Of a stretch of DNA of 64,000 bases, positions 12,371 to 36,790 are shown piece by piece. Position numbers and translations under genes: made by a program. Within the stretch, counting starts at the first letter, position 1; every line of letters starts with the position of its first letter. Origin of the DNA: Fibrobacter sp. UWR4 (GTDB taxonomy: Bacteria > Fibrobacterota > Fibrobacteria > Fibrobacterales > Fibrobacteraceae); assembly GCF_003149045.1 (NCBI RefSeq), contig NZ_QGDU01000001.1:1-64000 (forward strand). Reading direction: 5' to 3'. The notes beneath the pieces were generated by a model. That model was not told where the DNA came from. It saw only the letters and a list, made by a program, of their open reading frames with translations, and searched no databases.

Positions 12371-13309
12371 CTAGTCTTGTTCTTTTAGAACAATCTTGGA
12401 TAGGGCCGCAAATGCTGTGTCAGGATTTGCGTCTACCCATTCCTTAGACAACTTTGTCTTGAGAAAACGACCTTCTACGGAATTGTACCAATGAACCACT
12501 CGGGTTTCGGGGAGAACAAGTTTATCTACCTTCTTGTGGGTTTCGTTCTTGAACCAGTGGGCGCTTACTTCAGGACCTAGAGGGTAGAAGTAAGGGGCAG
12601 GAACCACTTCCATGGAATCGCTGCTTGTGTTTCCTGTTACATTCTGCAGGAGGCGAGTCCCTAGTCGGAACCGTTTGAGACGTTCTTCCTCGGGCATGGT
12701 CTTGATATATTCAAATGCCTTGATGATGGTTTCGTTGCCGGGTTCCGCTCCAATGACAGCGTTGTTTACGGCTGCGGTAAACAGCCCTTCGAACGCACGG
12801 AATAACTTGTAGCCACCAGGCATTCTTGCGCAAAGTTCACGGAAGGCGAACTGCATCCCGCAGAAAGCCCAACGGAAGGGATTGATGCTCTTGAAAAGGC
12901 TTGCTGGAAGAGCCACGGGCTCTGTACCCACAAAGCCTCTCTGTTCCATCATTTCGCCAAAAGGCTTCACCATGATGATGTCTGTATCCAGATAGACTCC
13001 ACCATACTTGAACAGCAATGCAAGGCGGAGCAGGTTTGCTCGGCTTGCGGGAGCGGTCAATGTGTGGAACAGTTTCCCGCAGAGTCCGTCGTCTCCAAGG
13101 CCTTCAAAGTGGCTGCCTGTCACGGGGATGGCTTCCAGTCCAGGGATATCCTTAATGAGATCCCAACCATCGCCTTCCTGTTTCAAACCTTCGTGAACAA
13201 GCCAAATGGATTGTGGCTTCTGGATGTTGTAGGCAGAACGAATGGCAAGTCCTCCGCTCCAGGGAAACTTAGGACCTAGCCAAATAAAGATGAGTCGATT
13301 TGGAATCAT
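12371..13309 (-). CDS. Glycosyltransferase with DXD sugar-binding region (GT32-like)
   Basis: This 312-residue protein begins IPNRLIFIWLGP, the usual start of the Gly_transf_sug/OCH1-like group. It carries the conserved RANLLRLALLFKYGGVYLDTD block with DTD at 108-110 binding the nucleotide sugar and metal. It has no signal peptide. It sits between a Dabb gene and the SRPBCC gene in one operon with a GT4 glycosyltransferase, so it likely decorates a surface polysaccharide or glycolipid. The acceptor is unknown. Confidence 0.85.
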   Translation of the reverse strand: MIPNRLIFIWLGPKFPWSGGLAIRSAYNIQKPQSIWLVHEGLKQEGDGWDLIKDIPGLEAIPVTGSHFEGLGDDGLCGKLFHTLTAPASRANLLRLALLFKYGGVYLDTDIIMVKPFGEMMEQRGFVGTEPVALPASLFKSINPFRWAFCGMQFAFRELCARMPGGYKLFRAFEGLFTAAVNNAVIGAEPGNETIIKAFEYIKTMPEEERLKRFRLGTRLLQNVTGNTSSDSMEVVPAPYFYPLGPEVSAHWFKNETHKKVDKLVLPETRVVHWYNSVEGRFLKTKLSKEWVDANPDTAFAALSKIVLKEQD

Positions 13310-13347
13310 GGATATCTACAGGATGGAAGTGAAAAAGGGTGGATGAA

Positions 13348-13665
13348 TTAGAATTCGAAATCCACGGCGCGACGTTCGGTCACAACCTTCTTCACGAAGG
13401 AGACAATTGCCTGGTGTTCAGGATGGTTCTGGTAAAAGTCCAGTGCTTCCTTGGTGCGGAAGGTGGTGTCCAGGGCAATATCGAATTCGATGTCGCCGTT
13501 ACCCAGTTCAGCCTTGTTGAAGTTCAGGCCGGATTCGATGCTTACGAGACCGGGAATCTTGCCTTCCAGTGCGTGGAATGCATCGACCATCTTCTGGCCG
13601 TTCACCTTTGCGGTGTTTCCTTCTGCTTCGGCCTTCAACTTCCAATATACGATATGACGGATCAT
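13348..13665 (-). CDS. Dabb (stress-responsive alpha/beta-barrel) domain protein
   Basis: The 105 residues match the dimeric Dabb fold: MIRHIVYWKLK at the start, a central LVSIESGLNF strand, and EALDFYQNHPEHQAIVSFVKKV near the end. Members are small cytoplasmic proteins of mostly unknown function. The start overlaps the stop of the GT4 gene (ATGA), indicating translational coupling. Nothing in the sequence gives a substrate. Confidence 0.88.
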   Translation of the reverse strand: MIRHIVYWKLKAEAEGNTAKVNGQKMVDAFHALEGKIPGLVSIESGLNFNKAELGNGDIEFDIALDTTFRTKEALDFYQNHPEHQAIVSFVKKVVTERRAVDFEF

Positions 13666-31310: not shown

Positions 31311-32237
31311 ATGGCTCTTTATGGTAGTATTCTTGACACCATCGGTAATACCCCTCTCGTTCGTATCAACAAATTGAACAAGGGTGATGCAGAAGTTTAC
31401 GTAAAGCTTGAAATGTTCAATCCGCTGGGAAGTGCAAAGGACCGTGTGGCTCTTGAGATGATTGAATCCGCTGAAAAGGAAGGCAAGTTAAAACCGGGTG
31501 CATTGATTATTGAACCTACCAGCGGAAATACTGGTGTAGGACTAGCTTATGTGGGTGCCGTCAAGGGTTATAAGGTGGTGCTCACCATGCCCGATTCCAT
31601 GAGCATGGAACGTCGTATGTTGCTTAAGTCCCTGGGTGCAGAAGTTGTGCTTACCGAAGGCGCCAAGGGCATGGCTGGCTGCATTGAAAAGGCCAATGAA
31701 ATCGCCGCTGCAAATCCGGGCAGTTTCATTCCCCAACAGTTTGAAAATCCGGCAAATCCGGTCGCTCACTACAAGACCACTGGCCCCGAAATCTGGCGCG
31801 ATACGGAAGGTAATGTTGATGTTTTTATCGCTACTGCAGGTACGGGCGGAACCGTTAGCGGCACTGCAAAATACTTGAAGGAAAAGAATCCTAATTTGTA
31901 TGTAATCGCCATTGAGCCGGATGATTCTCCCATGATTTCCAAGGGTGTTGCCGGACCTCATAAAATTCAGGGTATCGGTGCAAATTTCATTCCCAAGATC
32001 TATGACCCCAAGGTGGTAGATGAAGTCTACCTGACCAGCACCGAAAAGGCGGGCTCTGCCGCTCGTGCTGCCGCCGCTGAAGAAGGTATTTTCGTAGGTA
32101 TTTCCTCCGGTGCCGCACTGGAATGCGCTCTCACTGTGGCAAAGCGCCCCGAATTTAAGGGAAAACGCATTGTGGCACTCCTTCCGGATACCGGCGAACG
32201 CTACCTCAGCACCTGGTTGTGGAACAATGAAAAGTGA
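31311..32237 (+). CDS. cysK: Cysteine synthase A (O-acetylserine sulfhydrylase)
   Basis: The 308-residue length is that of CysK. The PLP lysine is Lys43 (GSAKDRVAL). The substrate loop PTSGNTGVGLAY and the phosphate-binding GTGGTVSGTAKYL are both present, as is the C-terminal SSGAAL motif. It makes cysteine from O-acetylserine and sulfide in the cytoplasm. GAGG lies 8 nt before ATG. The stop codon already lies within the left arm of a repeat unit. Confidence 0.96.
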   Translation: MALYGSILDTIGNTPLVRINKLNKGDAEVYVKLEMFNPLGSAKDRVALEMIESAEKEGKLKPGALIIEPTSGNTGVGLAYVGAVKGYKVVLTMPDSMSMERRMLLKSLGAEVVLTEGAKGMAGCIEKANEIAAANPGSFIPQQFENPANPVAHYKTTGPEIWRDTEGNVDVFIATAGTGGTVSGTAKYLKEKNPNLYVIAIEPDDSPMISKGVAGPHKIQGIGANFIPKIYDPKVVDEVYLTSTEKAGSAARAAAAEEGIFVGISSGAALECALTVAKRPEFKGKRIVALLPDTGERYLSTWLWNNEK

Positions 32238-32370
32238 TTAGTGGTTAGTGGCTAGTGGTTAGTGTTTTCAGGAATATTCTTTCGGGCTATTTAAAGACGA
32301 AACCTCCTCGAAATTGCAAGCACTTGCATCCTTCTGCCCTAGCCCCTAGAACCTAGACCCTAGCCCCTAA
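32234..32370. repeat. Intergenic repeat unit, copy 1, with 7-nt-periodic arms
   Basis: The left arm (32234-32264) is a run of TAGTGGT/TAGTGGC heptamers. The right arm (32338-32370) is a run of CCCTAGC/CCCTAGA heptamers. In RNA, GGCUAG in the left arm pairs with CUAGCC in the right arm, with about one mismatch per 7 nt. The ~70-nt centre carries a GAATATTC palindrome and GCAAGCACTTGC. The next unit is a diverged copy. Confidence 0.75.
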
Positions 32371-32580
32371 ATTAGTGATTAGTGGCTAGTGGTTAGAGTT
32401 TTCGGGAATATTCCGCAGGGAAATTTAAAGATGTAACCACCTGAAATTGCAGGCTCTTACATCCCGCAGCCCTAGCCTCTAATGAACCTCTAGGAGCGAA
32501 GCTCCGACCTCATACCTCAAGCGAAGCGTACCTCAAACTCCTAGCTCCTAGATTCCTGTCCCTAGCCTCAAAACTAGTGA
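32371..32580. repeat. Intergenic repeat unit, copy 2, with extended right arm
   Basis: The left arm 32371-32398 and centre 32399-32470 align with copy 1. The centre has GGAATATTCC and a hairpin in which GATGTAA (32430-32436) pairs with TTACATC (32457-32463) and CCTG pairs with CAGG inside. The right arm starts CCCTAGCCTCTA and runs into GGAGCGAAGCTCC plus ACCTCA/CTCCTAG heptamers up to about 32580. No convincing gene lies in the whole 32238-32705 gap. Confidence 0.7.
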
Positions 32581-32705
32581 AAGACGATTGATGATTTGGT
32601 GTTGTCATTGGGATGAACCTTTGATTTTCACTGACGAACCGAATTAAATTCAACAATTTATATATTATCTTTATACAAAGTAGAACACAACATCGTCTTT
32701 TTTTT

Positions 32706-33543
32706 ATGCGAAAACTTGTACCGCTATTTTTCTTGATATGCACCTGTGCGTTAAACATCATGGCGCAGGAAACCTCCGCAGACGTTGCCGAGCAGCCTTC
32801 AGCGGACACCATCCGCATCGAAAAGACCATACGCGATACGGTTGTCATCAACATTAAGCCAAAGGCTGATACTATTTACGTCACCGAAGATTCCCTCAAA
32901 ATACTCCAGTGGAAAGCTCGGCGGGATTCTTCCAATAAGGCTACATCAGACACATCATTTAGCTTAAGTAGCGTCTATCTTGGCCTCAATTTTTTTTCAT
33001 CTGGCAGCAACAATCATCAAGTATCCCGCCTACGAAATCAGCATTGAAAAAACTCTAGATAAACGCCAATCCTTAAGGCTACTCCACAGTCTCATTTACA
33101 TCAACGACGAAGATTTTTCAAATAAATATGGAGACCACTTCGAAGGAGACATTTTCCAGTGGACGGCAGGAGCGGCTTACCGTCACTACAGGAAAAGCTC
33201 CATCCTAAGCGGATACATTGAATTCGGACTGCAATATGTCAGCAGAATCGGTGACTACACGGCGCTGGATTATGTTTATGAATGGAATGCCGACGCAAGA
33301 GATTATGTAAAAAAGGATATGTCCAAGGATATCCACCAAAAAGCTCAGGGTTATCAATGGTTCGTTAACCTAGGAATGGAAAACCGCAAGCGTGCCTTCG
33401 AGCATCTGTTTACAGACGTTTCTTTTGGTATCGGCTACAACGCTCTTAGCAACTGGGAAAAAGGCGTTCTTTATGAGTTCGGCACCATCATCAGCGATGA
33501 TTTGCAGTTCAACTTGAATGTCGTCATTGGATGGGGACTGTAA
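32706..33543 (+). pseudogene. Outer-membrane barrel paralog 1, frame broken at an 8-T run
   Basis: The first frame (32706-33047) has a signal peptide ending NIMAQ, then a DTIRIEK segment and SSVYLGLNFF, after which it goes out of register and stops. The continuation is in the +1 frame (to 33543: YPAYEISIEKTL, then beta strands, ending NVVIGWGL). The switch point is the T run 32990-32997. With seven Ts the frames join into one ~278-residue protein, the size of paralog 2. It may be a pseudogene, a phase-variable or slippage-expressed gene, or a sequencing error. Confidence 0.7.
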
Positions 33544-33544
33544 A

Positions 33545-34393
33545 ATGAAACACTTGATTTTTTTCTCGCTGTTGCTTTGTGCAGGAATAATTTCCGTCTC
33601 TCACGCCTCGGATACCTTATATGTAGAAACGCATGTTACCGACACACTGTACGTCATCGACGAGCCGGACGCAGTCTACATGGCCGTTTCCAAAGAAGCT
33701 CCAATGAAAATTCCATTGGACTCTAGCACAAGCGATTCCCTGGGTAATACAACAAACAGTCGTGGAGTCAAGGAACCTGGGCGAGCTATCCACGTCAACT
33801 ACATGTCCGGGATGTCTATTATCGGTATTTTCTTCAAGATACTTCCCATCGACCTGACCTATGAAATAGAGACAAAATACAGGTCATCTATCTTACTCAG
33901 CATCAGCAGCTATATGGAATTTGGAGACATCGACTTTATAAATCCCAAAGAATGGGATGGTTTCAGGACGATTACCAATTTCGGCATAGGGTACCGCCAA
34001 TACATTGTTACTGGCAAAACAACTCTAGAAAATGAGGAATCAAAAAAACATAAACTCATCAACAATCCCTACGGTTCCATTTCCCTATTCCTTCAGGGCG
34101 AAATTTTCCCTGGACTCATGTACAGGCATGAAGTCAAGCTGGACGATGATGGACACAAGAAAGGTGATTACCATAGAGACAACGCCTTCGGCACAAGTTT
34201 TGTACTTACACCAGGATTATCCTACACTATAGGGCACTCCGTATGGACTTTGGGTTGGAGAATCGGTTACCAATATTGGTCTCACAACTTCAGTAACTTT
34301 GGCTTGATTGGAAAAGACGAAGGTATTGCCTTTCAGCCAGGTGTTGCAAATGGCGGAGTCTATCAAGGGTTTATTTTTTCCATAGGCTTCTAG
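33545..34393 (+). CDS. Outer-membrane beta-barrel protein, paralog 2
   Basis: This 282-residue protein has a signal peptide (MKHLIFFSLLLCAGIISVSHA). A short SDTLYVETHVTDTLYV segment and a linker follow, then about eight amphipathic strands ending in an aromatic (FIFSIGF), typical of outer-membrane barrels. ATG 33545 directly follows the stop of the previous frame (TAAAATG). The N-terminal segment and strand pattern match paralogs 1 and 3. Function unknown. Confidence 0.75.
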   Translation: MKHLIFFSLLLCAGIISVSHASDTLYVETHVTDTLYVIDEPDAVYMAVSKEAPMKIPLDSSTSDSLGNTTNSRGVKEPGRAIHVNYMSGMSIIGIFFKILPIDLTYEIETKYRSSILLSISSYMEFGDIDFINPKEWDGFRTITNFGIGYRQYIVTGKTTLENEESKKHKLINNPYGSISLFLQGEIFPGLMYRHEVKLDDDGHKKGDYHRDNAFGTSFVLTPGLSYTIGHSVWTLGWRIGYQYWSHNFSNFGLIGKDEGIAFQPGVANGGVYQGFIFSIGF

Positions 34394-35068
34394 ATGAAAG
34401 TTCTTATCCTTCTTTTAGTTTTTTGTGCAAGCGTTTTTGCGACTTCGGATACGGTCTTTGTGGATAACCACAAGGTTGCCATTGTAGCACCGACATCTCC
34501 CGATACTGGAGGTAAGACGGTCTTTGGTCACGAAATCTCTGCACACATTAACGGAGACTATGGGTACTACTTCACGTATGAACTGCACATCAACAACTTT
34601 GGTGTGGCCGCTAGATTTGGCTACTCAGCTCTTACATCTAATGGTTGGACAAGTTCCCTTAGCTACTACACCCAAAAAATCAATGAAAAAGGCGAAGTCA
34701 AGGAGATGAACTTGGCGCTGATAGGACGCTACCACCCGGGTTGGCTCACGCGGACGATGGAAGTGGGAGACTTTCTATTTGCTGTTCAAGGAGGCCTTAC
34801 CGGCCTAAGGCACGAAATTGACATTGTGGAAGACGCCAAGGGCAATCCCATAAAGGATACCCAGTATGGCCTACAAATTTTCATCGGGGCCGATGCGCGA
34901 TGGATTTGGAAGCATTTTTACTTAGGTGCTGAACTAAACATAGGGAGACATATAGTCAATCCCTCCTGGAAAGACCAAATGAGCTGGAATGATCGGGCTT
35001 CCGTCACCAAACGCATCATCAGCAATGGATTTTTTGAAACCGTTGTCAGTATCGGCATTCCTTTTTAA
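34394..35068 (+). CDS. Outer-membrane beta-barrel protein, paralog 3
   Basis: This 224-residue protein has a signal peptide (MKVLILLLVFCASVFA) followed by TSDTVFVDNHK, the same post-signal motif as in paralog 2. Strands alternating aromatic and polar residues follow to the C-terminal VVSIGIPF. The ATG directly follows the TAG of paralog 2, so the three genes form one transcript. It lacks the long linker of paralog 2. No family was recognised. Confidence 0.75.
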   Translation: MKVLILLLVFCASVFATSDTVFVDNHKVAIVAPTSPDTGGKTVFGHEISAHINGDYGYYFTYELHINNFGVAARFGYSALTSNGWTSSLSYYTQKINEKGEVKEMNLALIGRYHPGWLTRTMEVGDFLFAVQGGLTGLRHEIDIVEDAKGNPIKDTQYGLQIFIGADARWIWKHFYLGAELNIGRHIVNPSWKDQMSWNDRASVTKRIISNGFFETVVSIGIPF

Positions 35069-35128: not shown

Positions 35129-36790
35129 ATGGACATTCCTGAATCTTCCAATTTTATTCAAGACATTATCGTCAACGACTTGCAGACTGGCAAGCGCAAC
35201 AAGGTTCTTACCCGTTTCCCGCCGGAACCTAACGGCTACATTCACATCGGCCATGCCAAGTCCATTTGCCTGAACTTCGGTACCGCCCAGAAGTTTGGTG
35301 GTTTTACCAACCTCCGCTTCGATGACACCAACCCCACCAAGGAAGACGTGGAGTATGTGGATTCCATCCGCGAAGACGTGAAGTGGCTGGGCTTCCAGTG
35401 GAAGGAAGAATTCTTTGCTTCCGACTATTACGATCAGATTTATGCCTTCGCCGAAAAGATGATCGAAATGGGCAAGGCCTACGTTGAAGACCTGACCCGC
35501 GACGAAATGCAGGAATACCGCGGCAACGACGCCGGTAAGCCTTCCAAGCCGTCTCCGTACCGCGACCGTAGCGTTGAAGAAAACATGAAGCTGTTCCGCG
35601 AAATGCGTGACGGCAAGTACGCCGATGGCGAAAAGTGCCTCCGTGCAAAGGTGGACCTCTCTAGCCCCAACATGAACATGCGCGACCCGGTGATCTACCG
35701 TACCAAGCACTGCTCTCATCACCGCACTGGCGACAAGTGGTGCATCTATCCTATGTACGACTTCGCTCACCCCATCAGCGACTGGATCGAAGGCATTACC
35801 CACTCCATCTGTACTCTTGAATTTGAAGCCCATCGTCCGCTGTACGATTGGTTCCTCATTGAACTTGGCTTGGAGAACCGCCCCCAGCAGATTGAATTCT
35901 CTCGCCTGAACCTGACCTACACCATGATGAGTAAGCGTAAGCTTCTCGAACTGGTGGAAACCAAGGCTGTTCTTGGCTGGAACGACCCCCGTATGCCCAC
36001 GGTATGCGGCTTCCGTCGTCGTGGCTTTACTCCCAGCTCCATTCGCGAATTCTGCAGCCGTATCGGCGTGTCCAAGGCGGAATCCATGGTGGACGTAAAC
36101 CTGCTCTACTTCTGCATCCGTGAAGAATTGAACCAGAGCGCCAAGCGCGTCATGGCTGTGATCGACCCGGTGAAGGTTGTCATCGACAACTGGGAAGACG
36201 GCAAGGTGGAAATGGTTGAAGTGGAAAACAACCCCAACGATCCGAACGCCGGAACCCGCATGGTGCCGTTCGGCAAGGAACTCTACATCGAAGCAGACGA
36301 CTTCATGGAAGAACCTCCCAAGAAGTACTTCCGCTTGAAGCCGGAAGGGGAAGTTCGCCTGAAGGGCGCCTACTTCGTCACCTGCAAGAGTGTCGAAAAG
36401 GACGCAAACGGCAAGGTCACCGTCATCCACTGCGAATACGATCCCGCTTCCAAGGGTGGCGAATCTCCGGACGGTCGCAAGGTCAAGGGCACCATCCACT
36501 GGGTAAGTGCCGCTCACGCTGTGGACGCTGAAGTCCGCCTCATCGACAACCTCTTCACTCTGGAAGATCCGTCCAATGTTCCCGAAGGCGAAGATTGGCA
36601 CAGCTACCTGAATCCGGAATCCATGGTTATCAAGCAGGCTAAGGTGGAACCCGCCCTCGCTGATGCCAAGATGGAAGACCGCTTCCAGTTCCTGCGTCTC
36701 GGTTACTTCTGCCTGGATTCCGACGATTCCAAGCCGGGCCACCTGGTGTTCAACCGCACTGTGGGCCTGAAGGACTCCTTCAATAAGTAA
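35129..36790 (+). CDS. glnS: Glutaminyl-tRNA synthetase
   Basis: This 553-residue class I synthetase charges tRNA-Gln with glutamine. Both signatures are present: [12 protein letters not shown] (HIGH at 39-42) and a KMSKS-type MSKRKL near residue 270. The C-terminal anticodon-binding beta-barrels fill the last ~200 residues. It implies direct Gln-tRNA formation. Codon use is biased toward C/G third positions, which also opens a false 542-codon frame on the other strand. A strong terminator follows. Confidence 0.97.

Follow-up and report, generated by a model that had tools for sequence, protein, structure and literature searches.

Frame Break in the First Gene of a Barrel Cassette

The reading frame of the first gene in a three-gene barrel cassette of Fibrobacter sp. 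UWR4 is broken at a run of eight T's, and this probably, though far from certainly, reflects a recent one-base mutation in the T tract, by which one barrel gene of a conserved cassette would be silenced. In broader terms, rather than an evolved switch the break is most likely to be a recent accident specific to this strain, or else an error in the sequence. The window, meaning the whole 64,000-nucleotide stretch that was analysed, lies at the start of a 255,655-base contig (C1) in a 3.60-Mb draft assembly of 93 contigs that is 99.99% complete. The three barrel genes sit on the plus strand between cysK (31311–32237) and glnS (35129–36790), and the features discussed below are as follows:

32706..33047, plus strand: upstream frame of gene 1 (ORF A), 113 aa; 96.9% identical to residues 1–97 of the intact gene in the nearest relative (L008)
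32980..33543, plus strand: downstream frame of gene 1 (ORF B), carrying the remaining barrel, 187 aa; 96.7% identical to L008 residues 96–278
32990..32997, plus strand: run of eight T's at the frame break; the relative has a C plus six T's here
33545..34393, plus strand: gene 2, an intact barrel paralog of 282 aa, beginning 1 base past the stop of gene 1; 91% identical in the relative
34394..35068, plus strand: gene 3, an intact third barrel-like protein of 224 aa, directly after the gene 2 stop; 95% identical in the relative

ORF A consists of a signal peptide, a low-complexity DT-rich linker, the first barrel strand, 16 out-of-frame residues and a stop. ORF B, which overlaps ORF A at the T run, has no signal peptide and opens on a TTG, probably not a genuine start codon. 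The proposal of the first-pass annotation that the two frames join into one gene at the run was confirmed by the nearest relative, the metagenome-assembled Fibrobacter genome Horse_feces15 from horse faeces (L008, also G064; hereafter the sister), in which the cassette is present with 94.3% identical DNA and gene 1 is encoded in one frame of 278 aa that matches both pieces. When this sister gene was compared with the window by ungapped tblastn, residues 1–97 matched in one frame and residues 96–278 in another, with the junction exactly at the T run, and amino-acid identity was 96.9% upstream of the run and 96.7% downstream. Gapped tblastn misses the break since its extension runs through the wrong frame, and the ungapped comparison was used for this reason. 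At the site itself, the sister reads AAC-TTTTTT-C and the window reads AAT with eight T's in all, which amounts to two changes: a silent C/T substitution (AAC and AAT both encode Asn) and one extra base. Beyond the run, gene 1 has no more stops and no indel relative to the sister, leaving a single disabling change, roughly one third of the way along the gene. Another run of eight T's is found at 32698–32705, directly before the gene 1 ATG, where the sister has five.

Predicted Fold and Relatives of Gene 1

Gene 1 is an ordinary small outer-membrane β-barrel gene heading a conserved Fibrobacter cassette. In AlphaFold models of genes 1 and 2, a leader helix is followed by a DT-rich linker of low confidence and then by a small barrel with about 8 strands. 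For the intact sister protein the leader helix spans residues 4–24 and about 8 barrel strands follow from residue 90 on, with pLDDT mostly 73–94 in the barrel part and an overall pTM of 0.59, so that a signal peptide followed by 8 amphipathic strands is predicted with moderate confidence. Foldseek searches with the predicted fold of gene 1 gave Ail, OprF, OmpA, NspA and a Thermus outer-membrane protein as best matches (probability 1.00, E down to 3e-4, TM-score normalised by target 0.5–0.7). Sequence searches of gene 1 against Pfam, NCBIfam and PDB sequences returned no match, placing it in no curated barrel family, and OMP_b-brl matched only two members of the gene 2 alignment, and weakly. 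Pfam hits to CtaG_Cox11 and Card1 on the N-terminal part were below the cut-off and were taken as chance. Gene 1 had also been called a paralog of the next gene, and this held up, as the two are distant paralogs (hhalign probability 98.7%, E 3e-16). The downstream frame had been said to end in an aromatic residue, which was mistaken: it actually ends in ...VIGWGL, and thus in Leu, and a C-terminal Leu or Phe is normal for the gene 1 family. The first barrel strand comprises residues 90–95 of the model, and because the break falls at the end of this strand the 113-aa product would be unable to form a barrel.

Beyond the window, 19 other Fibrobacter genomes contain gene 1 homologs, 21 copies in all (the sister and 20 distant copies), and every one of the 21 is a single open frame of 260–302 aa. 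Gene 2 follows immediately in 21/21 copies and gene 3 comes next in most, with genes 1 and 2 usually overlapping by 1 or 4 bases outside the pair formed by this genome and its sister. A run of eight T's at the aligned site occurs in none of the 21 copies; the sister has six, the others have runs of three to six within 60 bases, and a run of seven lies near the aligned site in two nearly identical copies. A second strain of the window's species was not found among 80 genomes of the genus, a species-representative collection and viral contigs, and neither a pattern scan of viral contigs nor a plasmid search yielded more copies of the site.

The surroundings of the cassette vary. The cassette (window 32706–35068 against L008:5716–8077) is 94% identical between the two genomes and their other shared neighbouring DNA only 66–86%. 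In other species the cysK–glnS gap is without the barrel cassette, and some of their genomes carry it elsewhere. The high identity of the cassette relative to its neighbourhood, together with its absence from this gap in other species, suggests that it may have been exchanged horizontally. When contig C32 of the sister was compared with window 31–54 kb, a glnS–cassette–cysK block was found adjoining homologs of window 39–54 kb, which means that the two genomes do not share one gene order around the cassette. An intergenic repeat some 120 bases long is present twice between cysK and the cassette, the two copies being 82% alike (TAGTGGTTAGTG...CTAGCCCCTAG; window 32237–32354 and 32371–32489), with a further copy at C1 242923–243057 and related copies in the cysK–glnS gap of another Fibrobacter genome (G011). 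A scan for promoters and terminators gave nothing above chance.

Age of the Break and the Possibility of Sequence Error

Codon differences from the sister were counted on both sides of the break. ORF A shows 8 synonymous and 5 nonsynonymous differences (dN/dS 0.12) and ORF B shows 7 of each kind (dN/dS 0.25), against dN/dS values of 0.17 and 0.28 for the intact neighbours, genes 2 and 3, respectively. Amino-acid change is thus not in excess on either side, and with no additional stop or indel in the gene the break is either recent or artefactual. Several disabling changes with relaxed constraint, the mark of a pseudogene, were not seen, as gene 1 carries one break and its dN/dS does not exceed that of the intact neighbours. 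In the interpretation offered at first pass, recent decay was set beside phase variation, and it is the former that stands: there is one disabling change, the sister copy is intact, and substitution in the broken gene resembles that in its unbroken neighbours.

The main rival to a real mutation is that the eighth T arose by mistake in sequencing or assembly and that gene 1 is intact in the organism, which we regard as rather unlikely while giving it more weight than any other alternative. An error would fit the intact state of the sister and all other gene 1 copies, the purifying-type substitution pattern on both sides of the break, and the nature of the assembly, a 93-contig draft whose contig C1 contains one stretch of 60 Ns. 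To this we can set a homology-based frame-break scan, in which ORFs of relatives give homology cover for about 126 kb of the sequence sampled. It replaced a codon-usage homopolymer scan (1.0 Mb) that had missed the positive control at 32990. The frame is maintained across 94 six-base, 19 seven-base and one ten-base run in the cover, and the only clear frame break is that at 32990. This single clear break indicates that the assembly is not generally prone to homopolymer errors and therefore favours a real mutation, though 32990 is also the only run of exactly eight in the cover. A run of eight T's is well handled by Illumina sequencing. Fibrobacter isolate drafts of like shape (≤100 scaffolds, ≥98.8% complete) are mostly Illumina assemblies (PMC6291624), which would also speak against an error if this genome is one of them. 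Elsewhere in the window (13193–13517), a 109-aa frame of another Fibrobacter genome (G036) finds matches in two frames, at 48% and 75% identity, with the change of frame near 13348; this is a weak candidate for a second frame break, or else a spurious frame.

Under the preferred reading of a recent mutation, a C-to-T substitution would have lengthened the tract from six T's to seven, and replication slippage would then have taken it from seven to eight, the extra base putting the rest of gene 1 out of frame. The product would be the 113-aa fragment, stopping at the end of the first strand, and no barrel would be made. RNA-polymerase slippage on the eight U's of the transcript could provide a few to about ten percent of leaky full-length product, and the tract may revert at a raised rate simply as a run of eight T's, neither of which would be a selected form of regulation.

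Phase Variation, Slippage and Frameshifting

Phase variation had been put forward at first pass on the strength of the homopolymer, and as an evolved switch it was not borne out. The idea is that the run is a contingency tract whose length toggles gene 1 on and off by slipped-strand mispairing. The predicted product is a surface-type barrel protein, switching of genes by homopolymer tracts is known from other bacteria (PMC2715451, PMC2831843), and the run lies exactly at the frame break and is in its frame-breaking state, such that a one-unit change turns gene 1 off. However, the sister has six T's after a C, the 20 further copies lack a run of eight at the site, and the tract is not at the 5′ end of the gene, where such tracts cluster (PMC2831843). 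Eight is also short, and such runs are no commoner than expected in this genome, as contig C1 has 10 A/T runs of at least 8 inside genes compared with 14.7 expected from synonymous-codon shuffles. The tract is thus neither kept among orthologs nor longer than expected; it is a young tract without conservation, an argument against a maintained contingency locus, which we consider improbable. Hardly more probable is a switch newly arisen in this lineage of gut Fibrobacter, in which cells with seven and eight T's would coexist, the first barrel would flicker on and off, and slippage would keep expression at a low basal level while the gene is off. A literature search found no dedicated report of phase variation in Fibrobacter.

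Transcriptional slippage could bear on gene 1 in two ways. In the first, transcripts with eight U's would lose one U on purpose and the full barrel would be made at a set level. E. coli RNA polymerase slips on runs of seven or more T's, deletion on eight T's rescued about 10% of a reporter (PMC6260861), the loss of one U needed here is in the same direction as in those reporters, and the downstream frame is conserved. Against this, the slippery run is present in no homolog, the sister encodes the protein without any shift, and selection against slippage usually becomes apparent at nine A/T, with A/T runs in many genomes visibly selected against only from that length (PMC1088944). Functional slippage is, for these reasons, very improbable. 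In the second, slippage would be incidental: leaky expression of gene 1 is plausible because deletion slippage gives the right frame and a run of eight T's allowed a rescue of about 10% in E. coli (PMC6260861), and it would only soften the loss caused by the favoured one-base mutation.

The run also offers a perfect slippery heptamer (U UUU UUU) in the zero frame, on which programmed −1 ribosomal frameshifting could be imagined. The −1 frame stops after 20 codons (FIWQQQSSSIPPTKSALKKL, then a stop) and is not the barrel frame, which needs a +1 or −2 shift, and this reading was rejected as having next to no chance of being correct.

If real, the silencing of gene 1 would add one more surface-protein gene recently silenced by a change in tract length. 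The more useful by-product of this work is a barrel cassette of two or three genes that recurs across Fibrobacter and occupies different chromosomal locations.

Comparison with Known Systems

In its predicted fold, gene 1 is like the small 8-strand outer-membrane barrels OmpA, OprF, NspA, Ail and the Thermus major outer-membrane protein. It differs from them in sequence, with only 8–12% identity, and in its DT-rich N-terminal linker, which is specific to the Fibrobacter family. The layout of the break has a counterpart in tssM of Citrobacter rodentium, where an A/T run sits at a frame break and polymerase slippage is reported to give some full-length product (PMC4256274). In contrast to the tssM rescue, the intact sister gene shows that a shift is not part of the design of gene 1. 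The E. coli reporters with eight T's likewise combine an A/T run at a frame break with rescue by slippage (PMC6260861). Finally, the poly(A) tract of Listeria inlA and the tract of Helicobacter sabA (PMC2831843, PMC2715451) show how a change in repeat-tract length truncates a surface-protein gene, as seen here. Unlike those loci, the tract in gene 1 is not conserved, is not near the 5′ end, and is known from one genome sequence.
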